Assembly (NCBI GenBank): GCA_021463145.1
Contig: JAJTWZ010000007.1
Location: 1 to 64,000, forward strand
Reading direction: 5' to 3'
Origin: Blastocatellia bacterium
Lineage (GTDB): Bacteria; Acidobacteriota; Blastocatellia; UBA7656; JADIYM01
Length of the DNA stretch: 64,000 nucleotides
The notes below the pieces were generated by a model. That model did no database searches. It saw only the letters and a program-made list of their open reading frames with translations, and was not told where the DNA came from. How positions within the stretch are numbered: the first letter of the stretch is position 1; every line of letters starts with the position of its first letter. The position numbers and the translations under genes were made by a program. Positions 10,365 through 18,552 of this stretch are shown here, piece by piece.

Positions 10365-12170
10365 ATGACGAGGCCGGCGGATAACACTGCAGCCAAATGT
10401 CCTTCCTGCGGTACGACTGAGTTCGAGACCGGCGCAGTCGTGTGTTCGAACTGCGGTGCCGAGATATCGGGCGCCATCGACACTGCCGACCTCGCCGTTC
10501 CTCCGGGGGCTGGCGTCAGGCTCGAGGACAAGTACGTGGTGGACGGTGTCAGATGGGCCTGGGATGGCGTGACCTATCACTCGGCTCACATCGACGAACC
10601 GAACGGAGATCGCGTCATCATCGCCGAGCGCGCGGTTTCGGATCCCGATCCACTCGCCGAGGCCGGCCTTATGCGCCCCGGAGAAGCGATCGCCGTTTCG
10701 GCCAATCCATTTCATACCGAGCACGTGCTGCTGTCTCGTTTCGACTATTCCGGCATCGTGAAATCGCGATCGGTCTTCGTAGAAGCGGACCGTGCGTACA
10801 TGGTTCTCGACAGCACCGACGGAGATCCGATCGCGGATCTCGGGCCCGTTACCGAAGGCGAGGTTCGCGCCTGGGGCCTTCAGTTGTGTCAGATCGTCAG
10901 CCTTCTGCATCGGCAGGGGATCGTGCACAACGGTATCGAGCCGGGCAGCTTCATCGTGGACCCGCAACGCCGGCTCAAGTTGGGCCGATTCGATCGTTGC
11001 CGCCCGTCCGGCGCCTTCCGTTCGGATTCGCCTTTGCTGCCGCGGCCGGGATTCTCGGCGCCGGAATTGCAGCGAGTGGACGCGGACTCGGTGGTCGATC
11101 CACGTTCGGACATCTACTCGATCGGTGCTCTGCTCTACTACATGCTTGCAGGTGAAGCCCTCCCGGAGGCCGATCTGGCGTTGACCGAGAAGGGAGAGAT
11201 CGAGCTTTACCCCAAGCTGATCGTTGCCCCTGGCTTCGAGCGGATTCTCAATCGCGCACTTGCTCCGTACCCTGAGGACCGCTACAGGTCGGTCAACGAG
11301 ATGAAGCTCGCCCTCGCCGACCTGAACGTGACGGTCAATGTCCGTTCAGGTCACTTCACCGATGTCGGGAAGGTGCGCGAGCTCAACGAGGACTCGTTGC
11401 TGGTGCTGAACCTGACTCAGTATTTCGAGTCGGTTCAGACGAATATCGGTCTTTATATAGTGTCGGATGGAATGGGCGGCGAAGCGGCCGGGGAGGTGGC
11501 GAGCCGCGTGACCGTTCGCGCTATCGCCGAGTGGATCACCGACAAGCTCATCTCCGCCAGCCTTCGGTCGACACACGGAGAACGAATCGCCGCCGAGACC
11601 GAGACGGGCGGAATAAGGCTTGCGTCGAGCACGGGGGCTGACGTCAGGGCCTCCGAATTGCTGACGAACGCCATCATCCACGCCAACCAGGAAGTTCTGC
11701 AGTATGCACGGCTCAATCCGCACACGCGTGGTCTTGGGGCGACCGTGACGGCGGCGATGCTGGTTGGAAACTCGTTGACTATCGGGCACGTTGGCGACAG
11801 TCGTGCTTACGTTCTGACTTCGAGAGGAATCGAGCAGTTCACGGAGGACCACTCGATCGTCGAAAGGATGGTTCGGGAAGGGCAGATCGAGCGAGATGAA
11901 GCCCGTTATCATCCGTACCGAAATGTCATTTACCGTTCGATCGGATGCCGGGAGGAGATCGAGATCGACATCGTCAGATGCATGCTGCGTTCGGGTGAGT
12001 CCTTCGTGCTCTGCTCGGATGGACTGAACGGAATGCTCACGGACGACCAGATCAAGGATGTCGTTAACCGGAACCCGGAGCCAACCCAGGCTGCCAAGGA
12101 GTTAGTCGTCGCGGCAAATGCGCACGGCGGCGAGGACAACATTTCCGTCGTCGTGGTAACGGTGCTTTAG
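10365..12170 (+). CDS. Zinc ribbon-pseudokinase-PP2C phosphatase fusion
   Basis: A 601-residue soluble signalling protein with three parts. First, a zinc ribbon with Cys12, 15, 27 and 30. Second, a protein-kinase fold (about 50-320) that looks inactive. It has no glycine-rich loop, the VAIK-like strand reads VIIAER, the HRD-Asn block reads HNGIEPGS (188-195) and the DFG position reads GRFD, although the APE (SAPELQRVD) and DxxSxG (DIYSIGALLYYML) helices are intact. Third, an apparently complete PP2C phosphatase (about 328-600) with RELNEDSLL, SDGMGGEAAG, HVGDSRAYVL, LCSDGLNGM and GGEDNISVVVV. It would dephosphorylate Ser/Thr proteins, probably those phosphorylated by the kinase encoded 0.8 kb downstream, with the pseudokinase as substrate or nucleotide sensor. 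First gene of a five-gene same-strand cluster. Confidence 0.9.
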   Translation: MTRPADNTAAKCPSCGTTEFETGAVVCSNCGAEISGAIDTADLAVPPGAGVRLEDKYVVDGVRWAWDGVTYHSAHIDEPNGDRVIIAERAVSDPDPLAEAGLMRPGEAIAVSANPFHTEHVLLSRFDYSGIVKSRSVFVEADRAYMVLDSTDGDPIADLGPVTEGEVRAWGLQLCQIVSLLHRQGIVHNGIEPGSFIVDPQRRLKLGRFDRCRPSGAFRSDSPLLPRPGFSAPELQRVDADSVVDPRSDIYSIGALLYYMLAGEALPEADLALTEKGEIELYPKLIVAPGFERILNRALAPYPEDRYRSVNEMKLALADLNVTVNVRSGHFTDVGKVRELNEDSLLVLNLTQYFESVQTNIGLYIVSDGMGGEAAGEVASRVTVRAIAEWITDKLISASLRSTHGERIAAETETGGIRLASSTGADVRASELLTNAIIHANQEVLQYARLNPHTRGLGATVTAAMLVGNSLTIGHVGDSRAYVLTSRGIEQFTEDHSIVERMVREGQIERDEARYHPYRNVIYRSIGCREEIEIDIVRCMLRSGESFVLCSDGLNGMLTDDQIKDVVNRNPEPTQAAKELVVAANAHGGEDNISVVVVTVL

Positions 12171-12312
12171 TGTGATCTCACCGCGGCTTGCGCTGTACAA
12201 CTATGATTTCGCGTGTCGCGGTACCGATGCCATCCCGCTCGAAGTTGACGGTTTTGCCAGTGGCGGCGGCTACGTGCTGACTTTCTGACGAGGAATTTGG
12301 AGGCGGATAGAT

Positions 12313-12948
12313 ATGGTGCGATGCCACAACTGCGGTACCGAGAATCTCGACGGATCAGAGTATTGCGACGAGTGCGGTATGCGGTTGAGTGAACGGCGGC
12401 CGTCCACGGCCGACCTGATGCGCCCGCCCGGAGCGCCTTCGTTTTCGGCGTCTGACATCGTACCGAAGCCGGCCGTCCCGGCCGGACAGGCAGGCGAGCC
12501 TTCGGATCAGACGCTTCAGATGAGCTCAACTGGTCAGACCAGCGCCCCGGTGGTCTCACCCATCCCGGTTTCGTCTTCGGCCGGCCACAAGATTCCTCCT
12601 GGCTCGGCGGTGGCCAGGCTGATCATCGAGCGGGGCGGCCGTATCGGAAAGGAATTCGCCGTTGCCGGCGGCGAAACGAACATTGGAAGGTGGGATGCGG
12701 ATGGCGGGATCTTTCCGGACGTCGACCTCGACCAGGATGATCCGGAAGCGAAGGTCTCGCGCCGGCACGCGCGGATCATGCGCGAGGGAGGACAATTCTT
12801 CATCGAGGACCTCGGGTCGACGAACGGCACATTCATCAATCGAGGGCGCCGGCTTCTGCCTGGAAACCGTCATCCACTCAACAACGGCGACGAGATCATC
12901 GTGGGCAAGACATTTTTGAAATTCGTCGTCGAGGGAGCGCCGTTCTAG
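12313..12948 (+). CDS. Zinc ribbon-FHA domain protein
   Basis: A 211-residue phosphothreonine-binding adaptor. The N-terminal zinc ribbon has Cys4, 7, 18 and 21, and a proline/serine-rich linker follows to about residue 95. The C-terminal FHA domain has the conserved NIGRWD turn, KVSRRHARI and STNGTFINR. GGAGG lies about 9 bases before the ATG. FHA domains bind phosphothreonine peptides. The kinase encoded 64 bases downstream carries a closely similar FHA and is the obvious partner. No catalytic domain or membrane segment is present, so it is probably a scaffold or readout protein. Confidence 0.92.
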   Translation: MVRCHNCGTENLDGSEYCDECGMRLSERRPSTADLMRPPGAPSFSASDIVPKPAVPAGQAGEPSDQTLQMSSTGQTSAPVVSPIPVSSSAGHKIPPGSAVARLIIERGGRIGKEFAVAGGETNIGRWDADGGIFPDVDLDQDDPEAKVSRRHARIMREGGQFFIEDLGSTNGTFINRGRRLLPGNRHPLNNGDEIIVGKTFLKFVVEGAPF

Positions 12949-13012
12949 TTAGTCGACGGCCTCTCGCCGAATCGGGACTCGATTCGCACCAGCAAGGACG
13001 CACCCGCACGTT

Positions 13013-14341
13013 ATGGACAAACCTAGACCGGTGGGCACAACGCTCGAGCCGGGCACCCTGCTAAACGACCGCTATTACATCGTGAAGCGGATCGGAGGTG
13101 GGGGCATGGGCTCCGTCTACCAGGCGCGTGACAAGCGCCTGGCGGACAGGTTGTGCGCGGTCAAGGAAATGATCGAGATGTTCGCCGACGAGGGTCAGCG
13201 CGCGAAGGCCGTGGAAGACTTCACTCGCGAGGCACAGCTGCTGGCATCGCTCGAGCATCGGTCGATCCCGACCATCTTCGACTATTTCATCGAGGGCGGC
13301 CGCTACTACCTGGTGATGAAGTACATCTCAGGCGGCGACCTCGCTGACCAGATGCGCAAGCGCGGTGGCCGGGTTGACGAGTTGACGGTCACGAAGTGGG
13401 CAATCCAGGTGTCGGACGTTCTGCACTACATACATAACCAGGACCCCCCGATCATCTATCGCGACCTGAAGCCAGCCAACCTGATGCTTGACGATAAGCA
13501 GGGCAAGATCATGCTTATCGACTTCGGCATCGCCCGCTTCGTCGCACCAACACAGAAGGGCGTAACGGCAATCGGGACGATGGGCTACGCCCCGCCCGAA
13601 CTGTTCGCCGGTAAGGTGCAGGCGCGGTCGGACCTGTATTCGCTTGGCGCCACGGTGTTTCACTTGCTGACAGGGTCGGATCCACAGGACAACCCGCTCC
13701 TGATTTTCGACTTCTCGAAGAATCCCAGACCGTCTCAGTTGAACCCCGCCATCACGAGCGACATGGACTCGATAATTACCCGGACGGTCTCGCACCGGCC
13801 CGAGGACCGTCCATCGTCGGCGCTCGAGTTGATGCGGATGTTGGAGGAACACGAGCGACGACTGGTTCAACCCCATTCGAGTGCGGAACCCCTCGTACCG
13901 GTCGTGAGCGACGGGACCATCTTCTGTGGCAATTGCGGAACACGAATAGCTGGTGACGACGTCTTCTGCGCCCATTGTGGAGCCCGGCAGCGGCACGGCG
14001 CGCCGGGCCGCCCGTCAGCGCGCCTTCAGTTGGCGGCCTCGAACGATTCGGCAGCGGCTTTCGTTCTCGACAAGGACAGTCATCTGATCGGGCGGACCGA
14101 TCCACATACGGGTATCTTTCCTGAAGTAGACCTGTCGCCGTACGATCCTGAGACGAAAGTGTCGCGCCGGCACGCCCGCATCTATCGTCAGGGGCAACAA
14201 TTCCTGATCGAGGATCTGTCCAGCGTGAACGGAACGACCATTAACGGAGCCATTCGCTTGCCTCCAAAGCAACCTCGGGTACTCAACAGTGGAGACGATT
14301 TGAAGCTCGGCGAGACGATGCTGAAGTTCGTGCTTGGATGA
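13013..14341 (+). CDS. Ser/Thr protein kinase with C-terminal zinc ribbon and FHA domain
   Basis: Hanks-type kinase of 442 residues. Glycine loop IGGGGMGSVYQA, ATP lysine in CAVKEM, catalytic loop YRDLKPANLM with Asp151, DFG at 170-172, and GYAPPELFAG in the activation segment are all present, so it should be active. The kinase domain (about 18-290) is followed by a zinc ribbon (CGNCGTRIAGDDVFCAHCG from about 305) and an FHA domain (about 345-440; IGRTDPHTG, KVSRRHARI, SSVNGTTING). There is no transmembrane or PASTA region, so it is cytoplasmic, unlike PknB-type kinases. It is 3 bases from the RDD membrane-protein gene, which suggests translational coupling. Likely autophosphorylates and recruits partners through FHA. 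Confidence 0.95.
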   Translation: MDKPRPVGTTLEPGTLLNDRYYIVKRIGGGGMGSVYQARDKRLADRLCAVKEMIEMFADEGQRAKAVEDFTREAQLLASLEHRSIPTIFDYFIEGGRYYLVMKYISGGDLADQMRKRGGRVDELTVTKWAIQVSDVLHYIHNQDPPIIYRDLKPANLMLDDKQGKIMLIDFGIARFVAPTQKGVTAIGTMGYAPPELFAGKVQARSDLYSLGATVFHLLTGSDPQDNPLLIFDFSKNPRPSQLNPAITSDMDSIITRTVSHRPEDRPSSALELMRMLEEHERRLVQPHSSAEPLVPVVSDGTIFCGNCGTRIAGDDVFCAHCGARQRHGAPGRPSARLQLAASNDSAAAFVLDKDSHLIGRTDPHTGIFPEVDLSPYDPETKVSRRHARIYRQGQQFLIEDLSSVNGTTINGAIRLPPKQPRVLNSGDDLKLGETMLKFVLG

Positions 14342-14344
14342 GGT

Positions 14345-14971
14345 ATGGGTTTGACGTGCAGGCAGTGCGGTAGTTCGCTCCACGACCGGTCGAAGTTTTG
14401 CCCGAAGTGCGGCGCGCGTGTGTCGGGGTCAGGGCCGCTTGTCTCGACGGTGGCAGTCGCCGAACGGGAAGAGGCCGAGACGGAGGCATTCGACCTGGAA
14501 TCTGCTCCTTCGCCGCCGCGTGAATTCGAGGCGCCTCGCGGGCAGGCCCTGGACTATGAGCGGGCCGACTTCGGGCAGCGGCTTGGTGCCTTTCTCTTCG
14601 ATTTGCTTCTGTTTCTGATTGTGCTCATGTCTGCGACTTTTCTGCTGTCGAGCTACAGCGAAAGGTCGATCGTGTCGAGCAATGCCATGCTCGTGGCGTT
14701 CTACTGCGTAGCGTTCCTGCTTTTCGGGTTCAACTTCATTCTGCTGGCTGGACGAACGGGCCAGACAGTCGGCAAACGGCTCGTAGGCATTCGAATCGTG
14801 AAGGTGGACCACGCTCCTGCCGGTTACATGAGCGTCGTACTTCGGCACGTAGTTGGCTATCTGCTTTCCACAGTGGGATTTTTTCTCGGATTCGTCTGGA
14901 TCGTCTGGGATTCGCGCAATCAAGGTTGGCACGACAAGATAGCGCGGACCATTGTCGTACTTGCCCGATGA
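14345..14971 (+). CDS. Zinc ribbon-RDD family membrane protein
   Basis: A 208-residue membrane protein with an N-terminal cytoplasmic zinc ribbon (Cys5, 8, 19, 22) and an acidic linker, then an RDD domain from about residue 75. The RDD domain has FGQRLGAFLFDLLLF, a second hydrophobic helix, TGQTVGKRLVGIRIV and a third helix ending WDSRNQGWHDKIARTIVV, which is the family layout. RDD proteins are multi-spanning and in some species act in ion transport or stress tolerance; substrates are mostly unknown. The shared zinc ribbon ties it to the kinase and FHA proteins of this cluster, so it may be the membrane anchor or the regulated target. It starts 3 bases after the kinase stop. Confidence 0.88.
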   Translation: MGLTCRQCGSSLHDRSKFCPKCGARVSGSGPLVSTVAVAEREEAETEAFDLESAPSPPREFEAPRGQALDYERADFGQRLGAFLFDLLLFLIVLMSATFLLSSYSERSIVSSNAMLVAFYCVAFLLFGFNFILLAGRTGQTVGKRLVGIRIVKVDHAPAGYMSVVLRHVVGYLLSTVGFFLGFVWIVWDSRNQGWHDKIARTIVVLAR

Positions 14972-15010
14972 CCGGCCCGCCACTCGAAGGGGCCGGCGCT
15001 TCGCGACTCC

Positions 15011-16729
15011 ATGCCTGAGATCGTAATCAAGCCGAAGGCATCCGGCATTTACACCGTGCCGCTCGAGAAGGTCCGGACGACGCTCGGCCGCTCGTCGCGA
15101 AACGACGTATGCCTGAGCGACCCTTTCGCGTCGCGCTTTCACGTCGAAGTGCGACGGGAAGGCGACGACTATTTCGTGGCGGATGTGGGAAGCGCCAACG
15201 GCACTCTCTTGAACGGCATGCTTCTGGCCCGCCAGACGCGGCTGCAACCGAACGACGAGCTCCGGATCGGCGAAACGACGATCACGTTTGCGCGAGAGTC
15301 GAATGCATCGGTCGCCTCGAGCACCTCAATCCTATGGACGGAGGCCCACAAGAGTCAGGAACCGGACGTCACGATCCAATCCGCGCGACCCGGGCGGCGC
15401 ACGTCGGGTTTCCTGGATTCGCTTCGCAACACTTCGCCGGACGTGACGAGTGGCACCGTTTCGAAAGCCATGTCGGATGCTTTCGAACGCCGCGACCTGC
15501 TCGCGGTCGTCAGCAAGGTTGGAGTTGCGCTTCTTTCCGACACAACGCTGGATCAGACGTTCGACCTCGTCATGGACCTCGTGTTCGACACGATTCCGGC
15601 CGAGCGCGGTTTCCTCTTCCTCCTCGATGGCGAAGACCTGCTGCTCAAGGTGTCGCGATCGCGGACGGGGCCGGCCACGCCGAATACGGCCGATATCCAG
15701 ATCAGCCGGTCGATATCCGAACGGGTATTCAAGGAAGGCGTCGCCGTGCTCACGTCGGACGCAATGCACGATCCCAGGTTCCAGGCTGCGGACTCGATCA
15801 TTCTCTCCGCCGTCAGGTCGGTCATGGCGGTTCCCTTGAGCCTGGCGGATCAGACCTTCGGGATGATCTACGTCGACAACGCATACGACAGCAGGTTCAC
15901 CGAGGACGACCTGAAGGTTCTGACGACCGTTGCGGGTGTAGCTTCCATCAAGATCGAGAATGCGAAGCTCTCGGACGAGCGCCTGGAGAAGAAGAGGCTC
16001 CAGGAGGAACTCAAGGTCGCAAGCGAGATCCAGATGCGGCTTCAACCGGTCTGCCCCCCACCGATCGACGGGTACAGCATCTGCGCCTACAGCATATCGT
16101 CGCGGGAGATCGGGGGCGATTACTACGACTATATCGAGCGCAGGAAACAGGGTCGTTACGCGCTCGCGCTCGGGGACGTATCCGGGAAGGGAATTGGCGC
16201 CGCGTTGCTGATGAGCTCGCTCCACGCCGCGGTTCGAGCTCAGACTCAGACGCAACATCCGATCCGCGAGATGATGGCGAACCTGAATCAGTACATCGCC
16301 GACAACTCACCCGAGAACAAGTTCCTCACGCTCTTCTATACGGAGCTCGATCCTTTGACCGGCGACCTCCATTACGCGAATTGCGGGCACAATCCACCAA
16401 TTCTTGTCAGGTCGACAGGGCAGGTGGAGTTGCTTGCCGCGACGGGCCTGCCGATCGGAATCCTGCACGAGGCGGAATACGAAGAAGCGTGCGTGAAACT
16501 CTGGCCGGGAGACGTGCTCGTCGTCTACAGCGACGGCATCACCGAGTCGGTGAACACGGTCGACGAGGAATTCGGCGAGGAGCGTCTCATCGCCGTCGTG
16601 ACGAAGAACCTCAATGCATCCGCCGGCAAGATCCGTGACCGGATCGACGAAGCTCTGTCGCGATTCGTCGGCGTAGCGGCGCCAGTCGACGACATGACGC
16701 TGCTGATAGTGAAGCACGGCGCGAGCTGA
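15011..16729 (+). CDS. FHA-GAF-SpoIIE (RsbU-type) PPM phosphatase
   Basis: A 572-residue cytoplasmic phosphatase. Residues 1-95 form an FHA domain (TLGRSSRNDV, SRFHVEV, GSANGTLLNG). Residues 165-320 form a GAF sensor domain (LVFDTIPAERGFLFLLDGED, AVPLSLADQTFGMIYVDN). Residues 330-570 form a SpoIIE-type PP2C phosphatase (EIGGDYYDYIE, LGDVSGKGIGAALLMSS, YANCGHNPPILV, VVYSDGITESVN, DDMTLLIVKHG). Such enzymes usually dephosphorylate anti-anti-sigma (STAS) proteins or other phospho-Ser/Thr targets in response to a small ligand. No STAS or RsbW gene is adjacent, so the target may be in the phosphoprotein cluster itself. Last gene of that cluster, 39 bases after the RDD gene. Confidence 0.94.
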   Translation: MPEIVIKPKASGIYTVPLEKVRTTLGRSSRNDVCLSDPFASRFHVEVRREGDDYFVADVGSANGTLLNGMLLARQTRLQPNDELRIGETTITFARESNASVASSTSILWTEAHKSQEPDVTIQSARPGRRTSGFLDSLRNTSPDVTSGTVSKAMSDAFERRDLLAVVSKVGVALLSDTTLDQTFDLVMDLVFDTIPAERGFLFLLDGEDLLLKVSRSRTGPATPNTADIQISRSISERVFKEGVAVLTSDAMHDPRFQAADSIILSAVRSVMAVPLSLADQTFGMIYVDNAYDSRFTEDDLKVLTTVAGVASIKIENAKLSDERLEKKRLQEELKVASEIQMRLQPVCPPPIDGYSICAYSISSREIGGDYYDYIERRKQGRYALALGDVSGKGIGAALLMSSLHAAVRAQTQTQHPIREMMANLNQYIADNSPENKFLTLFYTELDPLTGDLHYANCGHNPPILVRSTGQVELLAATGLPIGILHEAEYEEACVKLWPGDVLVVYSDGITESVNTVDEEFGEERLIAVVTKNLNASAGKIRDRIDEALSRFVGVAAPVDDMTLLIVKHGAS

Positions 16730-16765: not shown

Positions 16766-18508
16766 TCACTGGCTGCCGCACTTGCCGTCGATCGTTCGTT
16801 TGAGCGCCTGAACGTCGCTCTGAGATGGATCCAGTTGAAGCGCCTTGCGAACGGCCGCTTGCGCGCTGGCGCAGTCGTTTCGGAACACATAGATCCTGCC
16901 CAGCAGCACGTACCCGGCCACGGATCTGGGATCCCAGAACGTGGCCGCCTTCAGGGCCTCGATAGAACGGTCGTAGTCGCCCATTCGCTCGAAAGCGCGC
17001 CCGCGGAGAAGGTGAGCCTCGGCATTGTCCGGATTCGACTGCAGCACACGGCCAAGTTCGTCGAGCGCTTCGCGATCGCGGCCCGCCTGATAGAACTCGC
17101 GCGCCCGCACCAGCGAATCATTTGCCGCAATGCTCGCTTCGGCGCTTCCCGTGGCGGACGGCACGGCAGTCGCGGCATCGCGGTCGCGCTTGAGCCGGAT
17201 CAGCGCCGCACGCGAGAATCTCGTCTTGAGGCGCGAAAGCTCCGGAATGGACTTCTTCGTCTCCCATTGCGCAAACGACGGCAGATGGCGCTTCGCCTGG
17301 TCCAGAGCTTCGGCTGCCTCGGCGCTTCTCCCCGTGCGTTCGCAGGCTTTCCACAGCAGGTAGTAGGCCTCTCCATCCATCGCGGAAAGCCGGACCGGTT
17401 CGCCATCGGCCGCCTTGCGGCGAATCGCCTTCTGAAGCTGGTCGGCCGCGGCGCCGAAATCGCCCTTCAGATAGAGCGAGTAACCATAGTTGAACTGCGT
17501 ATCGAGGTCACGAGTCGCGGCCTCGGCGGCCGGCTTCAGGTATATGTTCGCGTCGTCGTACCGGCCTGCCCGGACGTAGACCACGCCGGCATTGTTGTAC
17601 ACCTCGTAGAGCGGCATTCTTGGCACGAGGTCGGTGAACGTCTTCAATGCCTGGTCGTTCTGCTTGAGGTTGGCCTGCGATACTCCGACATAGAACGCCG
17701 CTTCCGTGGCGCGAGGATACCTCGAGTCGACGAGCTGTAGCGTCTTCACGGCGTCCTGCCAGTTGCCATCCAGGAACGAGAGGCGCCCCAGCTCGAAAAT
17801 CGCCTGCGTGTACTGCCCCTGATCCTTGCGCTCCTTCGAATAGGTCTCGATCGCGCGCGACAGAAACAGCGCCTTGTTCTTGCGATCCGCCGTAGTGACC
17901 GCCTTCATGAAATCGGCGAAGGCGTCGACCGGCACCTTGGTGGCCGATCCGATGAGGTCGTCCTTCGAGAATGGAAGCGACGGGTTGCGCTGCTTCATGA
18001 TCTCGTAAGCCATCTCCCCCTGGATCTCCTGCAAGTCCGACAGCTTGCCACCGCGATTCAATTCACGTCCGACCACGCGCCCTTCGCGGATATCGATGAG
18101 GCGCGCAGCGACGGTCACGGTCTCCTTGCCCTTCTCGGTGCCATCGACGCGGTACGTGCCAGCGATGACGAGATCTGCTCCGGCCCGCTCTCCAATCTTG
18201 ATCGACGTGGCTCGCGTGAGGATCGCGGCGACGGGCAGTCCTTCGCGCTCATAAGCGAGGTTACGCTCGTCTGGCCGGATGGACACGACGTCGGCTCCAA
18301 GGTCGAGCAACTCGGAGAGCATCTCCGAGAAGCTCTCGCCTATCCAGTTGTACTCCGGCCGCTTCGAGGTGTTCTCGAATGGAAATACCAGGACCGTGTC
18401 GGTCGTGGTGGCAACTGGAGACTCCGGCAACGCCGACGAGTGAACCGAAGCGGGAAGTGTGGCCGCAAGAAGCGGAGCGACGAGCAAGGCGAACGACAAT
18501 AATCTCAT
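16766..18508 (-). CDS. Secreted TPR protein with FlgO/CsgG-like N-terminal domain
   Basis: A 580-residue exported protein: signal peptide (MRLLSFALLVAPLLAATL), then a domain of about 170 residues resembling FlgO/CsgG/LpoB-type envelope proteins. Visible elements are TVLVFPFENTSKRPEYNWIG, IGERAGADLVIAGTYRV and VAARLIDIREGRVVG. The rest is tetratricopeptide repeats, clearest in AEAHLLRGRAFERMGDYDRSI and the following VAGYVLLGRIYVFRN. Probably a periplasmic or outer-membrane assembly factor; no enzymatic residues were recognised. The ATG at 18508 is preferred over an upstream TTG, because the upstream bases form the terminator of the tRNA transcript and the ATG begins a clean signal peptide. No good ribosome site is visible. 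Confidence 0.8.
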   Translation of the reverse strand: MRLLSFALLVAPLLAATLPASVHSSALPESPVATTTDTVLVFPFENTSKRPEYNWIGESFSEMLSELLDLGADVVSIRPDERNLAYEREGLPVAAILTRATSIKIGERAGADLVIAGTYRVDGTEKGKETVTVAARLIDIREGRVVGRELNRGGKLSDLQEIQGEMAYEIMKQRNPSLPFSKDDLIGSATKVPVDAFADFMKAVTTADRKNKALFLSRAIETYSKERKDQGQYTQAIFELGRLSFLDGNWQDAVKTLQLVDSRYPRATEAAFYVGVSQANLKQNDQALKTFTDLVPRMPLYEVYNNAGVVYVRAGRYDDANIYLKPAAEAATRDLDTQFNYGYSLYLKGDFGAAADQLQKAIRRKAADGEPVRLSAMDGEAYYLLWKACERTGRSAEAAEALDQAKRHLPSFAQWETKKSIPELSRLKTRFSRAALIRLKRDRDAATAVPSATGSAEASIAANDSLVRAREFYQAGRDREALDELGRVLQSNPDNAEAHLLRGRAFERMGDYDRSIEALKAATFWDPRSVAGYVLLGRIYVFRNDCASAQAAVRKALQLDPSQSDVQALKRTIDGKCGSQ

Positions 18509-18512
18509 GATG

Positions 18513-18552
18513 AAAAACCACGAGCCGCGCACCGACAAGCGACGCGCGGCTC
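18513..18552 (-). terminator. Intrinsic terminator after tRNA-Glu
   Basis: On the minus strand GAGCCGCGC (18552-18544) pairs with GCGCGGCTC (18530-18522), and GTGGTTTTT follows. A GC-rich 9-bp stem plus a T-tract is a canonical rho-independent terminator. It ends only a few bases before the start codon of the TPR gene. Confidence 0.75.

Follow-up and report, generated by a model that had tools for sequence, protein, structure and literature searches.

Gene clusters combining protein kinases, PP2C phosphatases and FHA-domain proteins are well known. The described systems closest to the locus presented here are: (i) the actinobacterial PknB-PstP-FhaB and GarA/OdhI modules, in which a kinase, a PP2C phosphatase and an FHA reader are encoded together, (ii) the PpkA-PppA-Fha pathway of type VI secretion, (iii) partner-switching phosphatases of the RsbU/SpoIIE/RssB kind, and (iv) the TerY-P triad, composed of a TerY-like vWA protein, a PP2C phosphatase and a Ser/Thr kinase (STK) with a C-terminal zinc ribbon (PMC11090510, citing Anantharaman et al. 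2012). The locus was distinguished within the first 64,000 nucleotides (referred to as the window) of contig JAJTWZ010000007.1 of a Blastocatellia bacterium (Acidobacteriota; assembly GCA_021463145.1; genome size 5.28 Mb), where five genes, designated A to E, lie on one strand at positions 10365-16729. Comparative analysis indicated that four of them (B-C-D-E) are a vertically inherited, class-wide operon of the Blastocatellia, which probably encodes a phosphothreonine signalling relay.

Genetic organization of the locus

Domains of the five proteins were assigned by Pfam/NCBIfam profile searches. The constant part of the locus comprises: (i) gene B (12313-12948), encoding a putative adaptor with a zinc ribbon (NLDGSEYCDECG signature), a variable proline-rich linker and an FHA domain; (ii) gene C (13013-14341), encoding an active Ser/Thr kinase (residues 14-283) followed by a zinc ribbon (303-324) and an FHA domain (336-442); (iii) gene D (14345-14971), encoding an RDD three-helix membrane protein (RDD match of 92 bits) with a dispensable zinc ribbon; and (iv) gene E (15011-16729), whose product is composed of an FHA domain (1-100), a linker containing Thr121 (PExTI), a GAF domain (161-325) and a SpoIIE-type phosphatase domain (326-572; 183 bits). 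They are preceded by the optional gene A (10365-12170), encoding a zinc ribbon (C12, C15, C27, C30), a pseudokinase (about 55-325) and a PP2C phosphatase (331-601). All five genes are on the + strand and the gaps between them (A-B, B-C, C-D and D-E) amount to 142, 64, 3 and 39 bases, respectively. Three hydrophobic spans were found in D and none in A, B, C or E.

The coordinates, strand and domain contents given in an earlier note on this DNA, made from the sequence alone, were thereby verified, including the three FHA domains (in B, C and E), the soluble kinase (C) and the two phosphatases (PP2C in A and SpoIIE in E). PP2C and SpoIIE are subfamilies within one PPM superfamily, and both enzymes of the locus are thus PPM-type. 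The four CxxC...CxxC ribbons were also confirmed: three of them (in B, C and D) score above the Zn_Ribbon_1 cut-off, and the fourth, in A, is below every cut-off. The genome contains in total roughly 25 Zn_Ribbon_1-type ribbons over the cut-off and 31 FHA domains, and by simple arithmetic three of each within 6.4 kb correspond to an approximately hundredfold excess over a uniform spread.

Conservation of the B-C-D-E gene order

The set of compared loci (n = 35) consisted of the window and the regions around the best RDD or kinase match from 34 further genomes of the class, and all open reading frames of these loci were annotated with profiles built in this analysis (L, f and g denote our locus, family and genus labels, respectively). 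The B-C-D-E order on one strand was found in 33 of the 35 loci, representing eight families. Locus L048 is broken by a contig end and only D-E is visible there, while L145 (genus g16) has the arrangement B-C-E with no RDD gene and is the single exception among the 34 loci in which B, C and E are all readable. Gene A precedes B in six of the 33 B-C-D-E loci. When adjacency was scored from search coordinates alone, B-C and C-E were adjacent in all 35 class genomes of the phylum sample, and D-E in 67 of 68 class genomes, the remaining one being split over contigs. In many loci the gaps between the genes are short or the genes overlap. Gene E was matched in each of 88 class genomes at E<=1e-100; 12 of these matches are restricted to the GAF-SpoIIE part, the frames being 539-563 aa long, and both loci inspected among them (L144 and L150) do encode the FHA domain.

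Beyond the class, the threshold applied gave no match to B in any sampled genome, and C was matched only in families f22 and f38, where it adjoins a PP2C gene. All families come out as monophyletic in the tree of concatenated B, C and E sequences, where the sister group of the window is the family of the same order. The single-gene trees mostly agree, with f8 not monophyletic in B and f3 weakly supported in E. Since the trees follow the families, the operon has been inherited vertically and is old within the class.

The earlier note had assumed that the five genes belong together, a claim for which a gene set scattered in related genomes would have been fatal; instead, order and adjacency are kept across the class. 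As a five-gene unit it was upheld for the constant four genes B-C-D-E and rejected for A, which is lineage-limited and optional among families. B-C-D-E is a real and old signalling unit that is apparently undescribed: full-text literature searches returned no description of this gene set, which is weak evidence of novelty, as many subscription papers lie outside their coverage. The class-wide retention of the gene order suggests that the operon is probably important to these cells.

Predicted functions of the B, C, D and E proteins

The catalytic residues of kinase C (Pkinase match of 151 bits) are invariant in the alignment (K51, E73, D151, N156 and D170), as are the phospho-binding GR/S..H/NG residues of its FHA domain. 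The internal zinc ribbon is present in 34 of 34 C orthologues, and 25 of the 34 proteins carry a second, N-terminal ribbon. An apparent link between the absence of A and this N-terminal ribbon was abandoned, being broken by the f2 loci L038 and L040 and by L145. Many f3 loci (L143:7561-10266, L144:9444-12023 and others) encode C proteins with up to about 400 extra residues, which lie between an N-terminal ribbon and the kinase domain and have no Pfam match.

In protein B the FHA residues G125 R126, S149 R150 H152 and N171 G172 are invariant, and its best sequence matches in the PDB are OdhI and GarA. B resembles these proteins in having an FHA domain with intact phosphothreonine-binding residues. 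GarA and OdhI carry an N-terminal phospho-acceptor motif (ETTS); B differs in this respect, as no ETTS-type motif occurs in its alignment and no Ser/Thr position of the linker reaches 80% conservation. A linker motif of B, PxFxxxxxPKPA, was considered and dropped: it occurs in f1, f2, f6 and some f4/f8 proteins, but not in f3, f7 or most of f5.

The phosphatase domain of E retains D370, D389, D508 and D561, the expected metal ligands of the SpoIIE family, in all 20 aligned sequences. The nearest solved structures of this part are an RssB-type two-component response regulator and Rv1364c, and this proximity, together with that of B to OdhI and GarA, supports an RsbU-like output combined with an FHA adaptor. 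With the RsbU/SpoIIE/RssB phosphatases E shares a complete SpoIIE-type phosphatase placed behind a GAF sensor, from which it differs by the additional N-terminal FHA domain and by an operon containing neither a STAS nor an RsbW-type gene. In the linker of E, Ser/Thr conservation of 80% or more is reached at a single position, Thr121 (29 of 35 sequences, all Thr).

Gene content, gene order, conservation, and the intact catalytic and phospho-binding residues make it fairly probable that B-C-D-E is a phosphothreonine signalling operon, encoding a kinase/FHA relay that is probably linked to the membrane and has the RsbU-like phosphatase as its constant output. The occurrence of B and A homologues beside C-like kinases in other phyla (see below) was also counted in favour of this reading, as was the presence of the same modules in lineage-specific genes of the locus (ZnR-TPR and PrsW protease-ZnR-FHA, ZnR denoting zinc ribbon). 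The soluble kinase C would autophosphorylate and then phosphorylate its partners, with Thr121 in the linker of E as a predicted phospho-acceptor. The resulting phosphothreonines would be read by the three FHA domains (in B, C and E), which would thereby bring the proteins together. B would serve as an adaptor of the GarA/OdhI kind, its constrained ribbon possibly binding a specific partner, and D would hold or relay at the membrane. In E, the GAF domain may sense a small ligand, and the phosphatase would form the output; its most likely substrate would be a regulator, STAS-type or similar, encoded outside the operon. In genomes with A, the pseudokinase could direct the PP2C domain to erase the phospho-marks, and E perhaps acts as an eraser too.

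Several observations weigh against this reading. No substrate or final target is encoded within the operon, Thr121 is absent from six of 35 E sequences, and adjacency is no proof that each of the proteins acts on the others. Protein D, regarded in the earlier note as the likely anchor, is indeed the only membrane protein of the island, but this role is weakened because D is missing in L145 and its ribbon is often lost. The joining of the kinase/FHA world with an RsbU-like phosphatase in one cluster offers a concrete handle on the question of Ser/Thr kinase control of partner-switching type outputs.

The locus might instead be a housekeeping module for cell-wall growth and division, comparable to PknB/PstP/Fha of Actinobacteria, in which case D would be an envelope protein. 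In B and E the FHA domains come closest to FhaB/GarA/OdhI, A combines an Stp1/PstP-like phosphatase with a PknB-fold pseudokinase, and the class-wide conservation itself suggests a housekeeping role. However, kinase C has neither a hydrophobic span nor a PASTA match in Pfam, the flanking genes vary between families, and neither rodA nor pbpA occurs among the Pfam-scanned neighbours in the window (the 64 kb were not scanned gene by gene). This explanation is considered unlikely. The island also differs from the actinobacterial modules in its zinc ribbons and RsbU-like phosphatase. The type VI secretion pathway PpkA-PppA-Fha has the same kinase/PP2C/FHA logic, and the fold neighbours of A include PppA, but no tss-like secretion gene was found among the neighbours scanned; the match to the TagH model TIGR03354 (51.7 of 120 bits) is far below the cut-off and covers the FHA part only.

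Gene A encodes an optional pseudokinase-PP2C protein

The kinase-like region of A (Pkinase-like at residues 116-267) has, in six of six orthologues, HN in place of HRD, FD or FN in place of DFG, and no beta3 lysine. In an AlphaFold model of moderate confidence this region adopts a fold near PknB, and the PP2C domain is near PstP/tPphA. Because the beta3 lysine, HRD and DFG are lacking in spite of the PknB-like fold, the label of pseudokinase is right. The PP2C domain belongs to the Stp1/IreP family (NF033484; 240 bits against a cut-off of 230) and its aspartates are invariant among the orthologues. The ribbon of A scores 22.4 of the 27 bits needed and has a spacing of 11 instead of 10, with the four cysteines kept in six of six orthologues.

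At a threshold of E<=1e-60, A orthologues were found in 13 of 88 class genomes. They lie beside B in f1, f4 (g8 and g12) and f8, and each of the seven f2 genomes carries A on a contig other than that of the island; linkage is not readable in the fragmented assembly G053. No A orthologue was found at this threshold in f3, f5, f6, f7 or g16. The constant phosphatase of the island is thus E, not A.

Zinc ribbons of the island are role-specific

The earlier note proposed that one and the same zinc ribbon recurs in four architectures and serves as the common docking element of a complex. In a comparison over 16 non-cysteine positions, identity between families for ribbons of the same role was 60% for B, 48% for the internal ribbon of C, 36% for the N-terminal ribbon of C, 29% for D and 23% for A. 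For different roles within one genome the mean identity was 9-27%, which is no higher than for different roles between genomes. The ribbons of the window are 19-25% alike among themselves, versus a mean of 20-25% (B, C and D) against 28 control ribbons of the same genome, in which Zn_Ribbon_1-type ribbons are common (dozens). The signatures are role-specific, that of C being VFCGNCG..IA.DD.FCAHCG. The ribbon is present in 34 of 34 B orthologues and missing from 17 of 34 D orthologues. A single shared docking ribbon was rejected on the basis of the role-wise comparison and the 28-ribbon control, with the loss of the D ribbon and the deviating spacing in A pointing the same way. Even so, one partner could be bound by two dissimilar ribbons, and the role-specific signatures, together with the retention of the B ribbon between phyla, make the question of ribbon binding testable.

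Two other loci of the window's genome also combine zinc ribbons with FHA domains. The island L151 (G000:C155:4000-18348) encodes a protein with four ribbons, a PEGA protein and an FHA-FHA-ABC transporter; in L152 (G000:C89:3000-20000) a PP2C gene comes after that of a ribbon-FHA protein.

Relatives in other phyla and comparison with TerY-P

The alignment of A was used in a wider search of one genome per GTDB 220 species, and all relatives described below are among the matches listed. Outside Acidobacteriota at least eight related loci (L060-L067) were found, five in Binatota and three in metagenome-assembled genomes labelled Proteobacteria/Deltaproteobacteria. Their gene order is vWA, B, a kinase-FHA gene (in two loci) and A, followed, where the locus continues, by another kinase and an FHA or vWA-FHA gene. 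The A homologues are 30-40% identical, and the homology of B spans the entire protein, ribbon signature included; the B protein of L061 (Binatota) shares 98 of 204 residues (48% over 204 aa), with the ribbon and FHA domain both kept. In the kinase tree, the kinases of these loci group with C and the f22/f38 kinases, apart from seven other kinases of the window's genome. The loci differ from the island in the presence of a vWA gene, in kinases without an internal ribbon, and in that no RDD or FHA-GAF-SpoIIE gene was seen. In the Binatota loci L061 (6751-8454) and L063 (13933-15585) a vWA-FHA fusion protein is encoded at the locus end. No publication on loci of this type was found. Weaker look-alikes (vWA, ZnR-FHA, ZnR-PP2C and kinase genes) were detected in WOR-3 (L119) and in Oscillochloris (Chloroflexota; L068 and L070); these sets are possibly no more than analogous.

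It is conceivable, although somewhat short of probable, that B, a C-like kinase and A represent an ancient core common to at least Acidobacteriota and Binatota, in which the vWA protein of Binatota was replaced in Blastocatellia by the RDD and FHA-GAF-SpoIIE proteins. If so, these loci would constitute an undescribed phosphothreonine signalling family connecting Ser/Thr kinases to RsbU-type phosphatases.

The likeness to TerY-P, pointed out in the earlier note, proved a good lead, as the B and A homologues adjoin a vWA gene in eight of eight related loci. The island could be read as a TerY-P type triad, or a defence or stress cassette, that has lost its vWA gene and in which the kinase-zinc ribbon and PP2C proteins form a metal-sensing or anti-phage phosphorylation switch. 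C, whose kinase domain is followed by a zinc ribbon, and A, with its PP2C domain, correspond to two of the three TerY-P parts (PMC11090510), and PADLOC kinase models match C. However, the island fails the TerY-P definition because a vWA protein is absent, as the earlier note had stated: none of the 17 vWA matches of the host genome is within the window, vWA queries (phmmer, of limited sensitivity) had no match in loci L131-L150, and between A/B and E only the A-E genes or, where scanned, TPR genes were seen. Pfam searches of the accessory genes likewise gave TPR or PrsW-FHA and no vWA, and relatives of the Binatota vWA protein occur only patchily in the class. Further differences are the continuation of C into an FHA domain, the additional ZnR-FHA, RDD, GAF and SpoIIE modules, and the optional nature of the PP2C protein, which is nearby in this genome and at the island in three families only. 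Vertical inheritance in every sampled class genome also does not resemble the behaviour of a mobile defence cassette. When plasmids were searched for TerY-P kinases, only generic kinases were returned, and a defence system was rejected because the PADLOC matches are to the generic kinase domain. We consider this explanation very improbable.

Equally doubtful is the view that the genes are co-located by history and act in separate pathways, only C and one partner forming a true relay: A, the D ribbon and the N-terminal C ribbon do vary without loss of the remaining genes, and C-like kinases of other classes pair only with a PP2C (L134-L136), but eight families retain the gene order, and in many of the loci the genes are closely spaced or overlap.

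Accessory and neighbouring genes

In some families, ZnR-TPR or TPR genes lie between D and E (identified by Pfam in L041, L044, L045 and L139); genes resembling them, not scanned with Pfam, are present in L047, L147 and L148. A PrsW-like membrane protease with zinc ribbon and FHA domains is encoded after E in L044 and L147 and at the start of L149. In L044 (11089-12357) and L147 (3266-4495), of families f6 and f7, this predicted intramembrane protease carries an FHA domain in addition to two zinc ribbons; recruitment through phosphothreonine would be unusual for a protease. Similar ZnR-FHA genes adjoin E in L042, L047, L049 and L051. The accessory ZnR-TPR and PrsW-ZnR-FHA genes suggest that the same phospho-reader logic recruits other outputs.

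The downstream neighbour of E in the window (16766-18538, - strand) is on the opposite strand and outside the operon; it encodes a TPR protein with a FlgO-like N-terminal part. The genome also encodes a second kinase-zinc ribbon-FHA protein (G000:C162:9593-10993; L131:9584-10891, - strand), which stands alone, without other island genes; the kinase tree places it as sister to the C protein of the window. Similar solitary kinase-FHA copies, lacking a ribbon, occur in f4 genomes (L132 and L133).

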